DNA of 64,000 nt from Meiothermus sp. (GTDB lineage Bacteria > Deinococcota > Deinococci > Deinococcales > Thermaceae): the NCBI RefSeq assembly GCF_026004075.1, contig NZ_BPIK01000001.1:549501-613500 (forward strand). The letters run 5' to 3'. The translations under genes and the position numbers were made by a program. Shown here in pieces: positions 18,101 to 40,295 of this stretch. Within the stretch, counting starts at the first letter, position 1. Every line of letters starts with the position of its first letter. The notes under the pieces were generated by a model. It ran no database searches and was not told the DNA's origin. It worked only from the letters and a program-made list of their open reading frames with translations.

Positions 18101-18772
18101 CTCGTGCACGTCGGTCTGCTCGCCCCAGATTTCGGGGCTGGCGTTGGGTAGGTCGCAGTACCAGTCGTAGAAGCTCATCGGCACGCCCCCAATCAGGCTC
18201 AAGAAACGCGAGCCGGCGGCGTAGCTGATCTGCGACATGGCCGGAATGGGACTAAAGCCGATAATCCGGTCGGGGCCGTATTGCTGGATGGTATGGATTA
18301 GCGAGGCAGAAATAATGTCCAGGGCCTCGTCCCAGCTAAACCGTCTGAAACCCCCCTTGCCCCGTGCCCGCTGCCAGCGTCTGCGCTTCTCGGGGTCGCT
18401 CACCAGGCTCTTCCAGGCGGCTACTGGGTCGGCGTGCTGTTCCCGTGCTTCGCGCCACAGGTCAATGAGCGCGCCGCGCGCGTAGGGATACTTGACCCGG
18501 ATGGGGCTATAGAGGTACCAGGAGTAGCTCACCCCGCGCTGGCAGCCCCGGGGGGTGATGTCGGGCAGGCTGGGGTCTATGGCGGGGTAATCGGTGGCCT
18601 GCAGCTCCCAGGTCACGATACCGTCCTTGACGAAGACCTCCCAGCTACAACTGCCGGTGCAGTTGACCCCGTGGGTGGTGCGCACCCGTTTGTCATGGGC
18701 GAAGCGGTTGCGGTAAAACTCCTCCCACTTGCGTTCGGTGGGGGCTTCCAGTTCCTTGATCCAGTCGCTCAT
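15182..18772 (-). CDS. narG: Respiratory nitrate reductase alpha subunit (molybdenum)
   Basis: NarG reduces nitrate to nitrite at a bis-MGD molybdenum centre on the inner face of the membrane. The 1196-residue protein has the His/Cys ligand set of the FS0 cluster (H34, C38, C42, C77) in HGVNCTGSC and RGCQRG, and the molybdenum-ligand aspartate D203 in [10 protein letters not shown]. Domain order and length match NarG (E. coli 1247 residues). There is no twin-arginine leader, consistent with a cytoplasmic-side enzyme. It overlaps narC by 4 bases (ATGA), so the cytochrome and the catalytic subunit are translationally coupled. Confidence 0.97.
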
Positions 18773-19569
18773 GTGCTCCTCCTACGAATGCGTTCGGCCA
18801 GCCCCAGTCGGCGGTTGTTCCAGTAGAGGTACATCACCCCAAACAGAACCAGCAGCCCCAATAGCCCGGCAAAAAGCATGCGGGCGGCGTCCATGGTGGC
18901 CGTATTGCCCGGCTTGCCTGCGGTTTGGGCAAAAAAAGCGGTGAGGGCGGTGATTTCCTCCGGCGTGAGCGGCTTGCCCTTGTAGCTCTCGCGCATCACC
19001 GGGAAGGCGATGTTGCTGAGCACCCCCTGGATTCCAGCCGCCCCCAGCCGGGTGTGGAGGTCGGTGAGGTCTTTGCCCAGGCTGCCGCCGCCCATCGGGC
19101 CAAAGTTGCCCGCGGTGTGGCAGGCCATGCAGGGCGCGCCGCCGTTTTTGAAGGGCTGCTGACCCAGGAACAGGGCCCGGCCTTTATCGGCCAGCGCGGG
19201 GTCGGTGGGGGCTGCGGGTGCGGAAGCCGTGGGCGCTGGCGCGGGTTCTGCCGCTGCACCTCCCAGCCCTTTCAGATAGCCCGCGATGGCCTTGGCATCG
19301 GCTTCGCTCACCTGCGGCATGGCGGGCATCACCCCGTTGTAGGTTTGCCCGCCCACCTCGAGCGGCCCGCTAATTCCCTCGCGGATGACCTTTATCACAT
19401 AGGCTTCATCCTGCATGCGCGGGTTTCCCGCCAGCGGAGGGAAGGCTCCCGGAATGCCCTGGGCGTTTGCCCCATGGCAGCCTGCACAGTTTTGGCTGTA
19501 TAGCTGCTGCCCTTCGGCAGCCAGGGCCAAACCGAGCAGGACGGCCAAGCCAACCAGTCGTCGTTTCAT
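18769..19569 (-). CDS. narC: Membrane-anchored diheme cytochrome c of the nitrate reductase (NarC)
   Basis: The 266-residue protein has a signal peptide (residues 1-18), a first heme c site CAGCH (C28, C31, H32), an Ala/Pro-rich linker (about 104-125), a second heme site CMACH (C147, C150, H151), and a C-terminal transmembrane helix (about 228-250) ending in a positively charged tail. This matches NarC, the fourth subunit of the Thermus nitrate reductase, which is known to help assemble the enzyme and link it to other electron donors. Maturation requires the Ccm system encoded at 56-62 kb. The gene is coupled by ATGA overlaps to the small ORF upstream and narG downstream. Confidence 0.9.
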
Positions 19570-19757
19570 GCCAGCCTCCTTTGGTTGTGGTTCTCCAGCC
19601 AGGACAGGAGCTCTTCGATGGCGTAAAAGGGATGTTCGGCCCCGGTCTTGGCGTCTTTAATCCGGCCCTCCCAGCGACCCGTCTCGTCCCGCCACAGGAG
19701 CACCAGGTACACCGGCGACCTGGGTGGGGGCAGATGACGGGGGGTGGGTTCGGCCAT
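19566..19757 (-). CDS. Small conserved-looking protein heading the nar operon
   Basis: I do not recognise this 63-residue protein. Its core reads YLVLLWRDETGRWEGRIKD, then TGAEHPFYAIEELLSWLENH, which looks like a small beta-hairpin followed by a helix. There is no signal peptide or cysteine. It is supported as a gene by its position as first ORF of the nar operon and by the ATGA overlap between its stop and the narC start. A role linked to nitrate reductase expression or assembly is only inferred from position. Confidence 0.65.
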   Translation of the reverse strand: MAEPTPRHLPPPRSPVYLVLLWRDETGRWEGRIKDAKTGAEHPFYAIEELLSWLENHNQRRLA

Positions 19758-19847
19758 ACAACCCTAGCTTGGGTCTTGGGTCTTACAGGCCACTTACAGG
19801 CTTGGGACATTTGCACCATCCGAACTTCCTAATCTGGAGGAAGAGTT
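19758..19847. promoter_or_regulatory. Divergent nar / dnrS control region with direct heptamer repeats
   Basis: The 90-base divergent region contains CTTGGGT at 19768-19774 and 19775-19781, then CTTACAGGC at 19782-19790 and again at 19793-19801 (11 bp apart), then CTTGGGA at 19801-19807. Direct repeats of about 7 bp at an 11-bp interval are the known binding pattern of SARP-family activators, and DnrS has a SARP-type DNA-binding region. No FNR-type TTGAT-N4-ATCAA dyad was seen. The dnrS start has a GGAGGAAG ribosome-binding site at 19836-19843. Promoter hexamers could not be assigned securely. Confidence 0.5.
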
Positions 19848-21809
19848 ATGAACCCGGTGCACTGGCAGCTCGACGAACAGGGGCGGATCGTTGCCTGGAA
19901 CAGGGATGCGGCCAACTTTTTTGGCCTGCCTGCTTCGGCGGTGCTGTCCAGGCCCTGCGCCGAGGTGGTAGGGGGCACCGACCCCTTTGGGCGTCCCCTG
20001 TGCGCGCGCTGTCCGGTACAGCGGGAGATTCGCTACGGGGCCTACCAGGCCAGCACGCCCCTGACCTGGCAGGGCCGGCGGCTCTGGTGTCAGGGTTATG
20101 CCGACAACGGCATTCGGATCGAACTCAAGGCCAGTGCCGGGTGTCAGCCGGGCGACCTGCTTACCTCGCTGGCCTGGGCTACCCGTCGGCTAACGGCCGA
20201 GCCGGGTCGCTTTTTCCAGACGCTGCAGGCTTTTCTGTCTGTCCTGCGCAGGGGGTTGGGCATGGAGGCTGCCGAGCTATTCTTGGCCGACCCCCAGGAG
20301 CATTACCTGGTGCTTACCGCCTACGACGGCGTACACCGCGAAGCTTTCATGGAGAGGCCCTGGTTCGCCTGGGGCGAGGGTTATCCGGGGCTGGTGGCGC
20401 TGGGCCACCGGGCGTTGGTGACGCACGACCTGGCCACCGACGAGCGCTATTTGCGGCAGAAGGTCAAAAAGCTGGGCTACAAAACCTACGTGTGTTACCC
20501 CCTCGAGCTCCCCCACGGCCTGATCGGGGTGCTCAACCTGGCCAGCCGCAACCCGGACGTGGAAGACCAGGCCCTTTTGCAGACGCTCAACCTGGTGGGG
20601 CCGGTGCTGGCGGCCTCGCTGTACACGGTGCTGACCCGGTTGGGTGAGAACGGCCTGTACGCCATCGCCCAGGCCCTGCACCGCGGCGCCGAAGCCGAGG
20701 GGCTCGAGGTGCTCCTGGGCCATGCCATGGAGCTGAGCGGGGCCTCGGGGGTGTGGCTGGCGCTGAAAGATGGGCGCAATCTTTCCCAAGGGCGGCCCGC
20801 GGCGGCCTGCCCACACCTGGCCCGGTGTGGGGTCTGGCAGGGCCGGGTTCAGGGGGTCAAGACGGGCCTCGAGCCCTGCCCCCACGTCCAGGATGGGCGG
20901 CCCCGCTACTGCCTGCCGCTCTGGTCGGGTGCCAGGGTGATGGGCGTGCAGCAGTTTCACTTTGCCCGCCTGCCCCAGCCCCCTGGCCGGGCGGTGGCGG
21001 CCTTGCAGTGGCTCCTGCGGCTGGGGGCCGAGGTGCTCTGGCCCACTGAGATCAAGGCGGCAACAGAAACCCCTCGGCTGGAGATATTCACCCTGGGCGG
21101 GCTGCGGGTACGCCGGGACGGTGAAACCCTTTCGGCCAAAGCCTTTGGCCGCCGTCAGGCCCTCACTCTGCTGAAGTTGCTGCTGGCCTACCGCGGCCAG
21201 ACCCTCACCCGCGACGAGCTGTGCGCCCACCTCTGGCCGGGAGAGGAGCCCGAGCAGACCCAGGGGCGACTGCACGTGCTGATACACGATCTGCGCCAGG
21301 CCCTGGAGCCGGAACCCAGCCAGCCCCAGGTGGTGGTGCGGGAAGGGGAGGGCTACCGTCTGGCCCTCCAGGCGCCCTATTTTCTGGATGTGGAGCGCTT
21401 CGAGGAACTTTTGCGGCAGGCCGAGCGCGAAGAGGGGGCTGTGGCCCTCGAGCTCTTGCGCCAGGCGCTGGCCTTGTACAGGGGGGACTTTCTGGCCGAT
21501 GAACCCTACGCCGACTGGGCCGAACTCGAGCGCAGCTACCTGCGCGAGCGGGCTGTGGGGGCCTGGTTCAGGGTGGCCGAGATCGCCCTGGCTCTGGGAC
21601 AGCCCCGCGAAGCCCTCGAGGCCTACCGCCGCATCCTCACCCTAGACCCCTGGCGCGAGGAAGCCTACGCCGAACTGATACAGACCCTGATGATGACGGG
21701 GCAGGAGCCCGAGGCCAGGAGCATCTTCCAGCAGTATCGGGTGCGCATGGAGCGTGAGGGCTTGCCAGTATCTACTTACTTAGCCCAGATGGCGCGGGTG
21801 AGCGCCTGA
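19848..21809 (+). CDS. dnrS: Nitrate-respiration regulator DnrS-like: PAS-GAF-GAF-SARP/BTAD transcription factor
   Basis: The 653-residue protein has an N-terminal PAS-like domain (about 1-95) with cysteines C37, C52, C55 and C81, a first GAF domain (about 110-262), a second GAF-like domain (about 270-400) with four more cysteines (C320, C326, C343, C354), a winged-helix domain (about 409-505, LGGLRVRRDGETL) and a bacterial transcriptional activator domain (about 510-653, ALALYRGDFL). This is the SARP architecture with sensory modules. It is transcribed divergently from nar and followed 8 bp later by a Crp/FNR gene, matching the dnrS-dnrT pair that controls respiration in Thermus nitrate-respiration elements. 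The signal is inferred to be oxygen, redox state or nitrogen oxides. Confidence 0.75.
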   Translation: MNPVHWQLDEQGRIVAWNRDAANFFGLPASAVLSRPCAEVVGGTDPFGRPLCARCPVQREIRYGAYQASTPLTWQGRRLWCQGYADNGIRIELKASAGCQPGDLLTSLAWATRRLTAEPGRFFQTLQAFLSVLRRGLGMEAAELFLADPQEHYLVLTAYDGVHREAFMERPWFAWGEGYPGLVALGHRALVTHDLATDERYLRQKVKKLGYKTYVCYPLELPHGLIGVLNLASRNPDVEDQALLQTLNLVGPVLAASLYTVLTRLGENGLYAIAQALHRGAEAEGLEVLLGHAMELSGASGVWLALKDGRNLSQGRPAAACPHLARCGVWQGRVQGVKTGLEPCPHVQDGRPRYCLPLWSGARVMGVQQFHFARLPQPPGRAVAALQWLLRLGAEVLWPTEIKAATETPRLEIFTLGGLRVRRDGETLSAKAFGRRQALTLLKLLLAYRGQTLTRDELCAHLWPGEEPEQTQGRLHVLIHDLRQALEPEPSQPQVVVREGEGYRLALQAPYFLDVERFEELLRQAEREEGAVALELLRQALALYRGDFLADEPYADWAELERSYLRERAVGAWFRVAEIALALGQPREALEAYRRILTLDPWREEAYAELIQTLMMTGQEPEARSIFQQYRVRMEREGLPVSTYLAQMARVSA

Positions 21810-21817
21810 ATCCGCTT

Positions 21818-22498
21818 ATGCTGGATGCTCATTCGGTTCTGGCTCGCTGCCCACTGTTTGAAGAACTGAGTCCGGCCGACCTCGAGGCCCTGGCCCAGCA
21901 AGCCCAACCGCGCAGCCTCCGCAAAGGCCAGACCCTTTTCCTGCAAGGAGACCCGGTGCTCTCCTTGTATGTGGTGGCCTCGGGGATGATCAAAATCTAC
22001 CGCCCTGATCCCAAAGGGCAGCGACAGGTGGTACTGCACCTGGAGGGGCCGCTGCGCCCGGTGGCAGCGGTGGCGGTGTTTTTGGAGCAGCCCTACTACC
22101 CAGCTTCGGCGGAGGCTCTGGAGGATAGTCAATTGCTGGCCATTCCTAAGGAAGGCTTTTTTGGCCTGGTGGATACCCGACCACCAGTGGCCCGGGCCAT
22201 GATTCGCTTCCTGGCCAAACGACAACAGCAGCTTGTACACCTGCTGGATCGCTTGGTGTTTCACGAAGTGGCGGCGCGGCTGGCCGAGTACCTGCTCGAG
22301 CAGGCCAGGCAGGCAGGTGAGGGGTTCCGCCTTCCCACCAACCCCGAACTGGCTGCTCTGCTGGGTACTGGGCCCGAGCCTGTCAGTCGCAAGCTGGGCG
22401 AATTTTTGCGCCAGGGCTTCATCGAGATGCAGGCCCGTTGCGTCTGGATCAAGAACCCAAAGGCCTTGCGGCAAATAGCGGGCGAGCAACACATCTAG
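21818..22498 (+). CDS. dnrT: Crp/FNR-family regulator, DnrT-like
   Basis: A 226-residue regulator with an N-terminal cyclic-nucleotide-binding-like beta-roll (LFLQGDPVLSLYVVASGMIKIYR, about residues 40-62), a dimerisation helix (about 120-150) and a C-terminal winged helix (LPTNPELAALLGTGPEPVSRKL, recognition helix about 190-205). It has only single scattered cysteines (C11 and C209), so it cannot bind an FNR-type [4Fe-4S] cluster. This agrees with the known cluster-less Thermus DnrT, which works with DnrS. It starts 8 bp after dnrS in the same operon. In Thermus this protein activates nar and other anaerobic genes. Confidence 0.78.
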   Translation: MLDAHSVLARCPLFEELSPADLEALAQQAQPRSLRKGQTLFLQGDPVLSLYVVASGMIKIYRPDPKGQRQVVLHLEGPLRPVAAVAVFLEQPYYPASAEALEDSQLLAIPKEGFFGLVDTRPPVARAMIRFLAKRQQQLVHLLDRLVFHEVAARLAEYLLEQARQAGEGFRLPTNPELAALLGTGPEPVSRKLGEFLRQGFIEMQARCVWIKNPKALRQIAGEQHI

Positions 22499-34527: not shown

Positions 34528-34571
34528 CTTGCAGGGGCTTTATGGGGACAAAAGACCTAGGACAACTGACC

Positions 34572-34606
34572 TGCCTCCTCCGGCTATCTTATATAGCGAG
34601 GAGGCA
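34572..34606 (+). promoter_or_regulatory. Hairpin/palindrome covering the ribosome-binding site of the molybdoenzyme operon
   Basis: TGCCTCCTC (34572-34580) is the exact complement of GAGGAGGCA (34598-34606), and GCTAT (34583-34587) pairs with ATAGC (34593-34597) inside it. The right arm is the ribosome-binding site (GAGGAGG), 4 nt before the ATG at 34611. The loop includes TATCTT and TATATAG, which could instead be a -10. It is therefore either an RNA hairpin that hides the ribosome-binding site or a DNA operator over the promoter. Confidence 0.55.
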
Positions 34607-34610
34607 AAGT

Positions 34611-35504
34611 ATGCCAGAAAACAATTCCACGCAACCCAGTGCGGATGGGTTGGAGAACCGAAGGGCCTTTCTGGGTAAATTCGCCAGTGCGGTGTTTGCC
34701 GGGATGGTGCTGGGGGGCGCTCCGGTCAAGGCCGAGGAAAGTAAGACCACCTTTGCGCTGCCGAGCAGAAGCCCCGACGGCCCCATTCGGCCCGAGCTCG
34801 AGTACGAAGACGTACTGGTGAGGATGCAGCGGGAGCTCGAGGCGGCCCTCGAGCGACCCATCCAAAAGTGGGTCATGGTGATTGATACCCGCAAGTGTGT
34901 GGGCTGCCACGCCTGTACCATCGCCTGCGCAGTGGAGAACAAACTGCCTCCCGGAGTGGTCTACCGCCCTGTCATCGAAGAGCAGATAGGCGAGTACCCC
35001 AATGTCTCCTGGCGCTTCACCCCCCGCCCCTGCATGCAGTGCGATAAACCGCCCTGCGTGCCGGTCTGCCCGGTAGGGGCCACCTGGAAGAGCGCCGACG
35101 GCATCGTGGACATTGACTACAACGCCTGCATCGGCTGCCGCTACTGCCTCACGGCTTGCCCCTACCAGGCCCGCACCTCCGACTTTGGCGACCACTGGAC
35201 CGACGGCACCCCCGGCCAGGGCCAGATGCCCTACGAGGAACTGCCCATGTTCGAATACGGCAAGGAGTGGAAGCGGGATGGTCATAAAAGCCCGGTAGGC
35301 AACGCCCGCAAATGCCATTTCTGCCGTCACCGCCTGCAACAGGGCCTGCTACCCCAGTGCACCACAAGCTGCATCGGGCGGGCCACCTTTTTTGGCGATG
35401 CCAACGACCCCAATTCCTTGGTATCGCAGCTCATCCACAAACCCAACGCCACCCGGCTCAAAGAAGAACTCGGTACCGAGCCACGGGTCTACTACCTGGT
35501 CTAG
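34611..35504 (+). CDS. Molybdoenzyme iron-sulfur subunit (four-cluster, TtrB/PsrB type)
   Basis: A 297-residue electron-transfer subunit. A twin-arginine-like leader ([16 protein letters not shown], residues 16-31) suggests export with the catalytic subunit. Four cysteine groups follow: [11 protein letters not shown] (C96-C106), [30 protein letters not shown] and CHFCRHRL...CTTSC, giving four [4Fe-4S] clusters as in PsrB, TtrB and ArrB. It passes electrons between the NrfD anchor and the molybdenum subunit. The start at 34611 has GAGGAGG upstream. It is followed 9 bases later by the anchor gene. Confidence 0.9.
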
Positions 35505-35513
35505 GAGGGAAGC

Positions 35514-36638
35514 ATGAACCGCACAACTGGTTGGATTTTGTTTGCGATCCTGGCCGTGGTGGGACTGGTCGGAGTTTTTCTGCGCTTCACCAGCAGCCGC
35601 GACCTGGCTGCGTACGGCAGCTACATTCCCTGGGGTCTGTGGGTGGCTACCTACATCTTCTTCGCGGGCCTTTCGGCCGGGGCCTATGTGGTCGCGGTGC
35701 TGGGGCACGTGTTTGGCGTGGAAAAACTCAAACCGCTGGCCCCGCTGTCCCTGGCCATCGCCCTGGCCTGCCTGGGGGCGGCCCTGGTTACGGTCTGGTT
35801 CGATCTGGGGCACATGGAACGGGTCTTCAATGTCTTTTTGCGGCCTCATTTCACCTCCATGATGGCCTGGATGGTCTGGCTCTACACGGCCTATGCCATA
35901 ACGGTCTTGCTGGCCCTGTACGGCTTGTGGCGTGGCAACCTCAACCTCACCCGAATGGCCCTGACCATAGGCACCCCGCTGGTGGTCTTCTATCCGGGGG
36001 CCGCCGGGGCCCTGTTCGGTACGGTGGTGGCCCAGAGCCTCTGGCATAGCCCGGTCTTTCCCATCCTGTTCTTGTTTGGGGGGGTGCTCTCGGGGGTGGC
36101 CCTGGTCACCTTTGCCAGTGCCTTCTTCACCCGCCGCAACGACCCCGGCTACCCAGAGCGCATCCACCTTTTGGGGCGCATCACCCTGGGGTTGGCTGTG
36201 CTGTACTTGCTCCTGGAGTGGGCCGAATACTCCATCCCGATGTGGTATCAGGTAGGGCATGAGTTTGAGGCGCTGATGGGCGTACTCTTCGGGCCCTTCT
36301 GGTTTGTGTTCTGGATCTTCCACCTGCTGCTGGGAATGGCCGTGCCCATCTTCCTGCTGGCCCGCTACCCACGCAACCCTGTGGCAGTGGGGTGGGCGGG
36401 CTTTTTGGCGGCCTCCATGTTCTTGGCGGTGCGTTTGAACCTGGTCATTCCCAGCCAGGTGCAACCGCAGCTCGAGGGTCTGGTCAACGCCTACCGCGAC
36501 CGCCGCTTGAGCTATAGCTACGTTCCAACCCTGTTTGAGTGGTCGGTGGTGGCTTTTTCGGTGGCGCTGGCCATTGCCATTGCCTATGCCGTGATCTGGT
36601 TCTTGAACCGTGAGAAGAAGCTCGAGGTGACCCAATGA
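35514..36638 (+). CDS. NrfD/PsrC-family quinol-interacting membrane anchor
   Basis: A 374-residue integral membrane protein with about nine predicted helices, of the NrfD/PsrC/TtrC family that exchanges electrons with the quinone pool. The early motif SYIPWGLWVATYIFFAGLSAGAY (about residues 36-58) is typical of the family. It has no heme-ligand pattern. A GGAGGG ribosome-binding site precedes the ATG. The stop overlaps the start of the catalytic subunit by 4 bases (ATGA), so the FeS subunit, anchor and catalytic subunit form one operon. Confidence 0.92.
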   Translation: MNRTTGWILFAILAVVGLVGVFLRFTSSRDLAAYGSYIPWGLWVATYIFFAGLSAGAYVVAVLGHVFGVEKLKPLAPLSLAIALACLGAALVTVWFDLGHMERVFNVFLRPHFTSMMAWMVWLYTAYAITVLLALYGLWRGNLNLTRMALTIGTPLVVFYPGAAGALFGTVVAQSLWHSPVFPILFLFGGVLSGVALVTFASAFFTRRNDPGYPERIHLLGRITLGLAVLYLLLEWAEYSIPMWYQVGHEFEALMGVLFGPFWFVFWIFHLLLGMAVPIFLLARYPRNPVAVGWAGFLAASMFLAVRLNLVIPSQVQPQLEGLVNAYRDRRLSYSYVPTLFEWSVVAFSVALAIAIAYAVIWFLNREKKLEVTQ

Positions 36639-39600
36639 AAGGTATTCAACGACGCGACCTGCTCAAGCTAGGGGCCTTGGGGGGTGGGGCGGCCCTGTTG
36701 GGTAAGCAAGCCGCCGAGGTGCTTCAGGCCAGCGCCGCTACCGTCCCCGGCAGCTACCCCATCCAGGAGCCCGAAAATACCCTGTACTCGGTTTGCTTGC
36801 AGTGCAACACCGGCTGCCCCATCAAGGTCAAAATCTACGAAGGGGTGGCAGCCAAAATTGACGGTAACCCCATCACCCCCTGGACCATGTACCCGCACCT
36901 GCCGTACAAAACCGATCTCAAAGACATGGCCCACGTGGACGGGGCGCTATGCCCCAAGGGGCAGTCGGGCATTCAGACCGTCTACGACCCCTACCGCATC
37001 CGCAAGGTGCTCAAGCGGGCCGGGCCGCGCGGCAGTGGTAAATGGGTGGAGATCCCCTTCGAACAGGCCATCCAGGAGATTGTGGAGGGCGGCCAGACCT
37101 TTGCCTCCATCGGGGATCAGCGCCGCTACCCCGGCCTCAAGGAGTACTGGGCCCTGCGCGACCCCAAGGTGATGAAGGCCATGAGCAAGGCAGTGGATGC
37201 CATCTGGGCCGAGAAGGACAAGGACAAGAAAAAAGCCCTGGTCGAGCAGTTCAAGGTAGAGTTCAAGGATCACCTCGACACCCTTATTGACCCCGATCAC
37301 CCCGACCTGGGCCCCAAGAACAACCAGGTGGTTTTCAACTGGGGGCGGCTCAAGGGCGGGCGCTCCGACTTCTTCAAGTGGTTCTTCGAGCAAAGCTTCG
37401 GTACGGTCAACCTGCACGGCCACACCACCGTCTGCCAGGGCTCGCTCTACTTCACCGGCAAGGCCATGAGCGAGCAGCTCGACTTCGACGAGAAAAAGGG
37501 CAAGTTCGACTGGACCGGCGGTAAGAAGTTTTACTGGCAGGGCGACCTGAGCGGGGCCGAGTTTGCCATTTTTGTGGGCTCCAACGTGTACGAAGGGGGC
37601 TATGGCCCGCCCCTGCGGGTCAACCGAATTACTCAGGCCGTTACCGAGGGCAAGCTCAAGTTTGTGGTGATAGACCCCCGTGCCCAAAAAGCCGTAGCCC
37701 ACGCGGCCAAATGGATTGCCCCCAAACCCGGCACCGACGCGGCCATCGCCCTGGGCATGATTCGCTGGATTCTGGATAATGGCCGCTACGACGCCAAATA
37801 CCTCTCGGCAGCCAACAAAGCCGCCGCCAAGGTCATAGGCGAACCCACCTGGAGCAACGCCACCTGGCTGGTCAAGCTGGACGACAAAGGCTTCCCGGCC
37901 AAGCTGCTGCGGGCCAGCGACCTGGGCCTGCCCCCTTTTAGCAAAACCGTCAAGGACGTAACCACCGAGTTCGACCCGCCCATCGCGCTGGTCAAAGGGG
38001 TTCCTACCCGCATAGACGTGCAGAGCGAGGACACCCCGGTGGTGGGGGATTTGTTCGTCAACACCACCCTGGGTGGTATCCGGGTTAAGAGTGCTTTGCA
38101 GCTCATCCGCGAGGAAGCCAACAAGCAGAGCCTCGAGGGCTGGGCAGAAATTGCCGGCATCCAACCCGAGGACATCGCCTGGCTGGCCTTCGAGTTCACC
38201 AACCACGGCAAGCGGGCCGCCATTGACATACACCGGGGGGTTAGCCAGCACACCAACGGCTTCTACAACGTGCTGGCCTGGTACACCCTGGGGGCCCTGA
38301 TTGGCAGCCACGACTGGCAGGGCGGTTTGGTGCAAAACAGTACCTACGACGCCCTGGGCGAGAAAGCCGAAGGCCCCTTCTTCCTCAAGGAGCTGCACCC
38401 CAAAAAGCTCTCTCCCTTCGGTATCTCCATCATCCGCCACGGCATCAAGTACGAGAACACCACCCTCTTCGAAGGCTATCCGGCCAAGCGCCCCTGGTAC
38501 TACAACGCCTCCGACGTGTATCAGGAAGTACTGCCCTCGGCAGCCCAGGGCTACCCCTACCCCATCAAGATTCTCTTCCACTACATGGGCTCCCCGGCCT
38601 ATGCCCTGCCGGCAGGCCAGACCCAGATCGAGGCCATGCTCGACCCCGACAAGATTGGGCTGATTGTGGCCTCGGATATCGTGGTGGGGGATACCTATGC
38701 CTACGCCGACTATATCTTCCCCGACCTGTCGTACCTCGAGCGCTGGGAGTTCCACGGCTCACACCCCAACGTGATCTGGAAAACCCAGCCCCTGCGCCAG
38801 CCGACCATTGCCCCCATACCCGAAACCGTGCAGGTTTTTGGCGAGGAGATGCCCCTCTCGATGGAGGCTATGCTGTTGGGGCTGGCCGAAAAGCTGGGCC
38901 TGCCGGGCTTTGGGGAACAGGGCTTCGCCAACGGTATGCCCTTCAAACGGCCCGAAGACTTCTACCTGAAAATGGTGGCCAACCTGGCCTACGGCGAGGC
39001 CAAAGATGGCAGCAAAGCGGTACCCGAGGCCAACGACGAGGAGCTCGAGCTCTTTGTCCGTGCCCGCCGACACCTGCCCAAGAGCGTTTTCGACCTCGAG
39101 AAATGGAAGGCCGCCATCGGCGAAGAACACTGGCGGCGGGCGGTGTACGTCATGAACCGGGGCGGTCGCTTCGAGGACTTCAAGAAGGCCTTTGCCGAAG
39201 ATGGCACGGTAGCCCATAAATACGGTAAGCAGATCAACCTGTACTTAGAAAAACAGGCCGGGGCCAAAGACGCTATGACCGGGAAGCCCTACTACCCCAT
39301 TGCGGCCTACTTCCCGGCCTACCTGGATGCCACCGGCCAGCCCATCGCCGACACCGAGGAAGGCTTCGAACTCACCCTGATCACCCACCGCATCATCACC
39401 ATGACCAAGAGCCGCACCGTCTCGAACTACTGGCTGCTGAACGTGCAACCGGAAAACTTCATTGCCGTACCCAAAGAAGACGCAGAGCGCCTGGGGCTGC
39501 GCGACGGCCAGATGGTCAAGGTGGTCTCCAAAAGCAACCCCGAAGGGGTCTGGGAGCTGGGGAACGGCAAGAAAAAACCCATGATCGGCAAGGTCAAGGT

Positions 39601-39841
39601 TGTGCCCGGCCTGCGCCCGGGAAACGTGGCCTTTTCGCTGGGCTATGGTCACTGGGTCTATGGTGCTACCGACCTCGAGGTCAACGGCCAGGTGATCAAG
39701 GGCGACCCCCGCCGGGCTACCGGCATCCACGCCAACGCCGCTATGCGGGTTGACCCGGTACTCAAGGATGTAACCCTCTCCGACCTGACCGGCGGTAGCG
39801 CGGTCTTCTACGACAGCAAGGTGCGTCTGCTCCCTGTGTAG
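36635..39841 (+). CDS. Molybdopterin oxidoreductase catalytic subunit, TtrA/SrrA-like
   Basis: A 1068-residue exported molybdoenzyme. It has a twin-arginine leader (RRDLLKLGALGGGAALLG), a [4Fe-4S] motif C54-x2-C57-x3-C61...C106 (CLQCNTGC, ALCPKGQ), and a probable molybdenum-ligand cysteine C267 in HGHTTVCQGS. Length and the roughly 75-residue charged insertion before the cysteine (about 160-235) point to the tetrathionate/selenate-reductase branch rather than PsrA/PhsA (about 760) or classical ArrA (about 850). Possible acceptors are tetrathionate, polysulfide, selenate and arsenate. Its enclosure by arsenic genes on both sides favours arsenate, but this is inference. Confidence 0.85.
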   Translation: MKGIQRRDLLKLGALGGGAALLGKQAAEVLQASAATVPGSYPIQEPENTLYSVCLQCNTGCPIKVKIYEGVAAKIDGNPITPWTMYPHLPYKTDLKDMAHVDGALCPKGQSGIQTVYDPYRIRKVLKRAGPRGSGKWVEIPFEQAIQEIVEGGQTFASIGDQRRYPGLKEYWALRDPKVMKAMSKAVDAIWAEKDKDKKKALVEQFKVEFKDHLDTLIDPDHPDLGPKNNQVVFNWGRLKGGRSDFFKWFFEQSFGTVNLHGHTTVCQGSLYFTGKAMSEQLDFDEKKGKFDWTGGKKFYWQGDLSGAEFAIFVGSNVYEGGYGPPLRVNRITQAVTEGKLKFVVIDPRAQKAVAHAAKWIAPKPGTDAAIALGMIRWILDNGRYDAKYLSAANKAAAKVIGEPTWSNATWLVKLDDKGFPAKLLRASDLGLPPFSKTVKDVTTEFDPPIALVKGVPTRIDVQSEDTPVVGDLFVNTTLGGIRVKSALQLIREEANKQSLEGWAEIAGIQPEDIAWLAFEFTNHGKRAAIDIHRGVSQHTNGFYNVLAWYTLGALIGSHDWQGGLVQNSTYDALGEKAEGPFFLKELHPKKLSPFGISIIRHGIKYENTTLFEGYPAKRPWYYNASDVYQEVLPSAAQGYPYPIKILFHYMGSPAYALPAGQTQIEAMLDPDKIGLIVASDIVVGDTYAYADYIFPDLSYLERWEFHGSHPNVIWKTQPLRQPTIAPIPETVQVFGEEMPLSMEAMLLGLAEKLGLPGFGEQGFANGMPFKRPEDFYLKMVANLAYGEAKDGSKAVPEANDEELELFVRARRHLPKSVFDLEKWKAAIGEEHWRRAVYVMNRGGRFEDFKKAFAEDGTVAHKYGKQINLYLEKQAGAKDAMTGKPYYPIAAYFPAYLDATGQPIADTEEGFELTLITHRIITMTKSRTVSNYWLLNVQPENFIAVPKEDAERLGLRDGQMVKVVSKSNPEGVWELGNGKKKPMIGKVKVVPGLRPGNVAFSLGYGHWVYGATDLEVNGQVIKGDPRRATGIHANAAMRVDPVLKDVTLSDLTGGSAVFYDSKVRLLPV

Positions 39842-39893: not shown

Positions 39894-39921
39894 GATTGTG
39901 GGCCACGCCGGACATCTGTCC

Positions 39922-39965
39922 TTGAACGGTGCGGGCTGGACTAGTATATTTCAACCATGGTTGAA
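39922..39965 (+). promoter_or_regulatory. Promoter and palindromic operator of the second arsR operon
   Basis: TTGAAC (39922-39927) and TATATT (39945-39950) are 17 bp apart, and the ATG follows 6 nt after the -10. The perfect 16-bp palindrome TTCAACCATGGTTGAA (39950-39965) starts at the last base of the -10 and includes the start codon. A further half-site GTTGAACC lies at 39974-39981. Repressor binding here would block both initiation and early elongation. Confidence 0.8.
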
Positions 39966-40295
39966 TCAATGACTGTTGAACCATCCGGCCTTGCGCCCCA
40001 AAATGGGTTACAGAGGGGCTTTCAGGCTCTCTCCGACCCCACCCGATTGCGCATACTGGGCCTACTGGAAAGTGGCACGCGCTGCGTCTGCGAACTCCAG
40101 AGCGGCCTTCCCGAGGTGGCCCCCAACCTGCTCTCGCATCACCTGCGGGTTCTGCGGGAGGCTGGGCTGGTGCACGCAGTACGACGGGGACGCTGGATTG
40201 ACTACGCACTGAACGCCGAAGCCCTCGAGCAGCTCCGAAACGCCATCCCCCGCCCGAGGGCTTTTTCTACTGCCTGCACCTGTGAGGATCTATGA
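39957..40295 (+). CDS. arsR: ArsR-family repressor (second copy)
   Basis: A 112-residue winged-helix repressor. FQALSDPTRLRILGLLESGTRCVCELQ carries the classical arsenite-sensing CVC motif (C43, C45) at the start of the DNA-binding helices, followed by NLLSHHLRVLREAGLV as recognition helix. A second C-x-C pair (C107, C109) is at the C-terminus, close to the end. The start is set by the leaderless promoter and by the palindrome over the start codon. It is coupled to the permease gene by an ATGA overlap. Confidence 0.93.
   Translation: MVESMTVEPSGLAPQNGLQRGFQALSDPTRLRILGLLESGTRCVCELQSGLPEVAPNLLSHHLRVLREAGLVHAVRRGRWIDYALNAEALEQLRNAIPRPRAFSTACTCEDL

Follow-up and report, generated by a model that had tools for sequence, protein, structure and literature searches.

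In the Thermus thermophilus NCE, nar has been found by others to need both DnrS and DnrT genetically, with responses to oxygen or to amount. DnrS of this system is described as a GAF plus BTAD protein required for nar (PMC5748679) and, in the available text of two studies, as the proposed oxygen sensor of Thermus denitrification (PMC5748679; PMC7694296). In mutants of DnrT no DnrS is produced, in those of dnrS the expression of DnrT is constitutive, and a requirement for DnrS is reported at PnorC and PnirJ (PMC5748679); the accessible part of another report states the same need for Pdnr (PMC6282519). According to the portions available of the two studies, in vitro work with DnrS was unsuccessful, and its binding to DNA proved impossible to assay (PMC5748679; PMC7694296). 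A literature search found no DnrS binding site in the accessible text of the sources that it covered, the primary 2007 study lying outside this coverage. In the AfsR/afs box system of Streptomyces coelicolor, the available part of the source places the repeat DRup at -40 to -30 and DRdown at -29 to -19 (PMC10936776). Here, the nar/dnr locus of a Meiothermus sp. was analysed in the window, i.e. the whole 64-kb stretch of DNA under study. Sequence comparison suggests that a heptamer pair upstream of nar is most likely the docking site of the oxygen-responsive DnrS on DNA.

The nar–dnrS gap and its repeats

The nar transcript lies on the minus strand of the window and begins with a small ORF of 63 aa (19566–19757), which overlaps narC through ATGA; narC (cytochrome c, 18769–19569, minus strand) is followed by narGHJI, with the Pfam families Cytochrom_C, Molybdopterin, Nitr_red_bet_C, Nitrate_red_del and Nitrate_red_gam. 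On the plus strand lie dnrS (19848–21809), coding for PAS, GAF, an OmpR-type winged helix and BTAD, and dnrT (21818–22498), coding for a CRP/FNR-family regulator. DnrS of the closest named relative, Meiothermus sp. KatS3mg071, is 100% identical to that of the window, and NarG and DnrS show close co-occurrence across genomes. The 63-aa ORF is kept in Meiothermus-like relatives and in locus L013 with 49–100% identity; its family had no named match in Pfam or NCBIfam, and in Thermus loci no small ORF before narC was seen at the sensitivity used. The sequence-only reading had placed a regulatory site between nar and dnrS. Its placement stood, while the gap proved smaller than it had assumed, only 90 bp (19758–19847), because the conserved 63-aa ORF precedes narC.

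All five CTT words that had been pointed out were located in this gap (CTTGGGT at 19768–19774 and 19775–19781, CTTACAG at 19782–19788 and 19793–19799, CTTGGGA at 19801–19807), and the copies of CTTACAGGC are, as claimed, spaced by exactly 11 bp. Of 5000 dinucleotide shuffles of the 90-bp gap, 2 contained an exact 9-nt repeat with lag 11 and 48 contained one with some lag between 7 and 40; 69 had five CTT inside 40 nt. CTTACAGN4CTTACAG, with up to three mismatches allowed, had a single occurrence in the window, the exact copy, which is also the sole exact CTTACAG pair among seven zero-mismatch matches of a degenerate pattern in the organism's own genome (3.25 Mb, two contigs). A genome-wide scan for the degenerate heptamer pair, with 115 matches (63 forward, 52 reverse) against 37 in the control, was uninformative. 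The proposal that the five CTT words form one site survived for the conserved CTTACAG pair and fell for CTTGGGT and CTTGGGA, which are not conserved. The tandem CTTGGGTCTTGGGT (19768–19781), which overlaps the predicted nar -10 and spacer and lies outside the conserved site, was found only in the window species and the near-identical G039/L001 and is absent from other relatives, which rules out a single site made of all five words. CTTGGGA is assigned to the edge of a separate element, the DnrT dyad treated below.

Conservation of the nar promoter module

The dnrS upstream regions were gathered by genome search and by gene position; the layout of the elements, their conservation, what became of them in split genomes and the domains of the proteins were computed here. 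Read on the nar strand, the 14-bp dyad GGGACA-NN-TGTCCY is followed by 4 nt, a first heptamer (H1), 4 nt, a second heptamer (H2), 10 nt and a -10 of the form NANNNT. All 36 distinct loci compared, which come from two families, share this rigid layout. In the window, H1 as the distal heptamer (19793–19799, minus strand; CTGTAAG when read toward nar) would occupy -40 to -34 of nar and the proximal heptamer H2 (CTGTAAG, 19782–19788, minus strand) -29 to -23, and the two are proposed to be the upstream and downstream DnrS half-sites. The putative -10, CAAGCT (NANNNT class, 19766–19771, minus strand), predicts a start at about 19759, the -40/-29 register using the usual 7-nt step from -10 to start. 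The two heptamers would cover and adjoin the predicted -35 position, in a region unlike the consensus; the comparison supports direct repeats of a heptamer, 11 bp apart, across the -35 region of nar.

The NANNNT hexamer stands exactly 10 nt past H2 in 18/18 distinct non-Thermus and 18/18 distinct Thermus loci, an offset that had been spotted by eye before counting; at the other 31 offsets scanned it occurs in at most 4/18 non-Thermus and 1/18 Thermus loci. The form TANNNT is present in five of the 18 non-Thermus loci, most boxes being without the first T. TAGGGT (19761–19766, minus strand) was rejected as the nar -10: its start would lie within the small ORF, and conservation in 36/36 loci is seen only for the hexamer located 5 nt further upstream, at 10 nt from H2.

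For the repeats themselves, alignment columns were permuted, which keeps relatedness, and the best score over lags 7–18 and all positions was recorded. With 19 non-Thermus sequences, the best score was at lag 11 at H1/H2 (4.63 of 7 matches) and was reached in 0/5000 permutations (largest 4.26), as again (0/5000) with the 15 non-Thermus sequences below 80% identity; SARP operators have direct repeats spaced by about 11 or 22 bp. The 18 Thermus sequences alone gave their best score at lag 10 at the same place, which was not significant (1382/5000), and all 37 sequences together gave 50/5000; Thermus H1 fits better one base closer (lag 10). A heptamer matrix from the non-Thermus loci scored best at H1 or H2 in 14/18 Thermus loci (9 at H1, 5 at H2; 26 positions each), a result that is supportive only, since the sequences are homologous. 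L070 (with a decayed dnrS), L001–L003 (identical to the window here) and exact duplicates were left out of the permutation and module counts, whereas L010, L012 and L069 entered the permutation test and not the nar-module table, to which the nar sides of G025 and G026 were added. The distant genomes G090 and G092 have a different nar layout, in which inspection gave nothing, and in G098, with nar and dnrS on separate contigs, no module was recognised by eye. The CTTACAG pair is kept where dnrS and nar are kept, and the lack of conservation that the sequence-only reading had named as evidence against its own proposal was thus not observed.

Genomes in which the two transcription units are apart indicate the promoter to which the heptamers belong. 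In G025, dnrS and nar stand about 2 kb apart, with other sequence between them; the nar side carries the dyad GGGTCGAATGTCCC, followed by CTGTAAG and CCGTAAG 11 bp apart and GAGGCT at 10 nt, and on the dnr side the dyad AGGACAAATGACCT is present and heptamers are absent. In G026, with nar and dnrS on different contigs, the nar side has the dyad together with GTGTAAG, GGGTAAG and GAATCT, and the dnr side has a dyad only. With heptamers kept on the nar side and the dyad alone on the dnr side, the heptamers go with nar, in line with the earlier naming of nar as the target operon. A reading of the repeats toward dnrS, as an activator site for dnr, was ruled out by the dnr sides of the split genomes, which are without repeats. 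The pattern agrees with the published behaviour of DnrT and dnrS mutants (PMC5748679) and leaves the need for DnrS at Pdnr, as given in the accessible part of its source (PMC6282519), without explanation.

The dyad and DnrT

The dyad of the window, GGGACA-TT-TGCACC (19804–19817), is proposed to be a CRP/FNR-type DnrT operator common to the nar and dnr promoters. The dyad is symmetric, with a right half that is degenerate in Meiothermus, and of 42 rows, 41 have GGGACA-NN-TGTCCY or a close form upstream of their dnrS, L016 having been re-anchored by hand; the exception is L070, the locus with a decayed dnrS. The helix of DnrT carries PExVSR, which we take to be FNR-like, and is nearly constant across clades, as is the dyad. 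The core GAC-N4-GTC is common to the dyad and the Pnrc DnrT sequence published in the part of the source available (PMC7694296). For dnrST, a candidate -10, TAATCT (19830–19835, plus strand), predicts from sequence a start at about 19842. The 14-bp dyad would be centred near -51.5 for nar and near -31.5 for dnrST, and one dyad could therefore serve both divergent promoters, with DnrT autoregulating dnrST. A dyad at a dnrT-type promoter and no heptamers were found in G030, with dnrS deleted, and in G036, which has no DnrS and where the promoter is that of a dnrT paralogue; in G009, with dnrT apart from dnrS, the dyad is likewise kept and heptamers are absent.

Several further observations concern dyads and dnrT genes elsewhere. 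A perfect dyad lies between the lone dnrT of G009 and a divergent cytochrome-like gene (L085:6605–6622), and in L108 (G030) and L110 (G053) dnrS is apparently internally deleted before an intact dnrT, with no narG and the dyad kept; other dnrT-like genes (G010, G011, G016, G017, G018, G021, G022, G023, G024) showed no clear dyad there. In the window, two tandem dyads, GGGACAAAAGACCT and AGGACAACTGACCT (34545–34572), followed after 12 nt by TATCTT, precede a 4Fe-4S protein gene (34605–35504) that has a molybdopterin oxidoreductase gene (36635–39841) downstream; these genes may be DnrT-controlled. Another dyad, CGGACATCTGTCC (39909–39921), lies upstream of an ArsR-type regulator reading frame (39951–40209). 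In the Thermus-like loci L073–L082, several denitrification genes have TTGACC-NN-GGTCAT dyads centred near -41.5, together with -10 boxes of which GAAGCT is one example (spacing judged by eye); both site and position are FNR-like.

Candidate regulators and known systems

The description of DnrS as a SARP-type winged helix plus BTAD held. Trans_reg_C (437–505) and BTAD (513–644) are both above the Pfam cut-off, and the first PDB match of the C-terminal half is the AfsR SARP structure 8hvr (E 6.4e-13, residues 407–632, both domains); the score against the NCBIfam AfsR equivalog was 53 of 1430 bits, below the cut-off, and Pfam gave no receiver domain. The conserved DNA-contact residues of SARPs are Q48, W74, P79, T88, R94 and K95 (AfsR numbering). 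In alignments read by eye from W74 to K95, the window DnrS keeps the W, P and R94; at the K95 position most Meiothermus proteins have Q and those of Thermus have K, and the base-reading T88 and the specific contact R92 are replaced by V and D. The recognition helix of DnrS has three broad forms, which are tracked by the class of the heptamers: HVLxH with GTAAG (Meiothermus, L013), YxxVYHLRK with YGCCAG or CGCAAG (Thermus), and VxxVVHxLR with GNGAA (the other family). This covariation is confounded with phylogeny; the dyad and the DnrT helix stay constant while the DnrS helix varies.

A scan of 50 genomes of the family for GTAAG-N6-GTAAG-N11-ANNNT gave 12 matches, and the reversed control pattern gave 6. 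Of the 12 matches, 6/12 are nar promoters, 2/12 lie before another SARP gene and 4/12 are unexplained. At this second SARP gene, 6/6 Meiothermus loci fetched have three words of the GTAAG/GATAAG type at spacings of 10 and 11, with NANNAT following after exactly 10 nt, and the repeats face a divergent 62-aa ORF. Its helix LHQNLYHARR resembles LHVLIHDLRQ of DnrS, and the small proteins of the two loci share 27% identity over 45 residues (pairwise E 3e-6). It is possible, if doubtful, that the Thermaceae hold an ancient cassette of a SARP gene, GTAAG-type repeats with a -10 box 10 nt further on, and a divergently oriented gene for a protein of about 60 aa, present as two paralogous copies, of which the dnrS copy would have recruited nitrate respiration and gained the DnrT dyad while the other would have its small protein alone, and that the small protein is a SARP partner or feedback modulator. 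About 30 weaker relatives of the small-protein family are mostly away from BTAD genes when compared by eye, and this weakens the cassette idea.

In the reading that we favour, with a probability of about 0.68, the CTTACAG pair is the DnrS operator that activates nar and the adjacent dyad is the DnrT operator; the sequence-only reading was probably right about the role of DnrS at the repeats. In its favour we count the rigid module, the lag-11 repeat outside Thermus, the afs-box register, the likeness of the DnrS C-terminus to AfsR, the split genomes, the heptamer classes that follow the DnrS helix, the layout at the second SARP gene, the co-occurrence of NarG and DnrS, and the dyads without heptamers in G030 and G036. 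Two DnrS SARP-type domains would occupy neighbouring positions at -40 and -29, and the bound DnrS would help RNA polymerase to start the nar operon at about 19759. Transcription of nar would need both regulators, DnrS being oxygen-sensitive and DnrT acting by its amount. The assignment of proteins to elements, the start sites and the SARP-like activation are what we infer. Against DnrS at the heptamers stand the replaced T88 and R92, the distance of 10 nt (not 8) between H2 and the -10, the first T missing from most of the -10 boxes, the repeat that falls short of significance in Thermus alone, the reported need for DnrS at Pdnr, and the reported need of PnorC and PnirJ for DnrS, compared with a pair found only at nar: a scan of ten Thermus denitrification loci gave a convincing pair with a well-placed -10 at nar alone, and the pair was not convincingly found at the apparent Thermus norC promoter.

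The alternative that survives best, and that we consider unlikely, makes the dyad GGGACA-NN-TGTCCY the DnrS operator, gives the heptamers to another factor and restricts DnrT to TTGACC-NN-GGTCAT, as at Pnrc. Dyad-like sequences at nar, at dnr and, beside TTGACC, at the apparent norC promoter of Thermus would match the reported DnrS dependence, nrc carries merely a degenerate copy, and the outer bases differ from the TTGACC type. Yet the dyad stays without an intact DnrS (G030, G036) and at the lone dnrT of G009, it is unchanged where the DnrS helix changes and, like it, the DnrT helix is constant, and SARP domains bind direct repeats, whereas a CRP-family dimer suits a dyad.

Less probable is that an OmpR/PhoB-family response regulator, and not DnrS, binds the heptamer pair. 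OmpR-family response regulators share the repeat geometry, which the DnrS assignment also has to face, and CTGTAAG resembles the pho-box word CTGTCAT. The accessible part of one source gives 7-bp direct repeats with 4-bp spacers for this family (PMC4832192). The motif is not widespread, as the 12 matches against 6 for the GTAAG pair plus -10 indicate, and DnrS is a SARP-type protein encoded beside nar and, in published work, genetically required in T. thermophilus. Slightly less probable again would be core-promoter or spacing constraints of nar with no dedicated activator: H2 fills the spacer by the -35 and polymerase contacts alone could hold fixed distances, but the two words are alike within a locus while changing between clades, a likeness that core contacts do not need, and H1 would lie as far out as -40 to -34. 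A chance repeat in one genome, despite the frequency of five CTT words in shuffled gaps and the unconserved CTTGGGT copies, is contradicted by the CTTACAG pair kept at the same register in divergent relatives and is very improbable.

DnrS at the CTTACAG pair, the reading that we prefer, can be set beside described systems. PhoB/PhoP-type boxes also have 7-bp direct repeats with a 4-bp spacer; unlike their regulators, DnrS is without a receiver domain, and the present motif is nearly confined to nar and one other SARP promoter. The heptameric SARP operators of ActII-ORF4, Streptomyces DnrI (close to Thermus DnrS in name but another protein) and PimR likewise consist of seven-base repeats with short spacers near the -35, and PimR uses 10-bp units, according to the part of the source available (PMC10972967), as Thermus appears to do. 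In contrast to the 8 bp reported between the 3' repeat and the -10 in the available text on SARP operators (PMC10936776), 10 nt separate H2 from the predicted -10 in 36/36 loci. The T. thermophilus NCE has the same dnrS and dnrT genes in the same divergent arrangement with nar; the heptamers of Thermus are, in contrast, degenerate and 10 bp apart. The afs box of S. coelicolor is similar in having a poor -35 and a pair of direct repeats, 11 bp apart, whose first bases are at -40 and -29, and AfsR resembles DnrS in an OmpR-type winged helix followed by BTAD, with an alignment through both domains. AfsR differs in having NOD-TPR at its C-terminus instead of the N-terminal sensory PAS-GAF of DnrS, and DnrS differs further in the replaced T88 and R92, another repeat word, an anaerobic respiration target and a second, proposed dyad operator immediately upstream. 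A short candidate operator with predicted contacts and a predicted start makes the DnrS–DNA question directly testable, and the comparison suggests that SARP-type promoter activation, best known from Streptomyces antibiotic clusters, may operate in the anaerobic respiration of Deinococcota.
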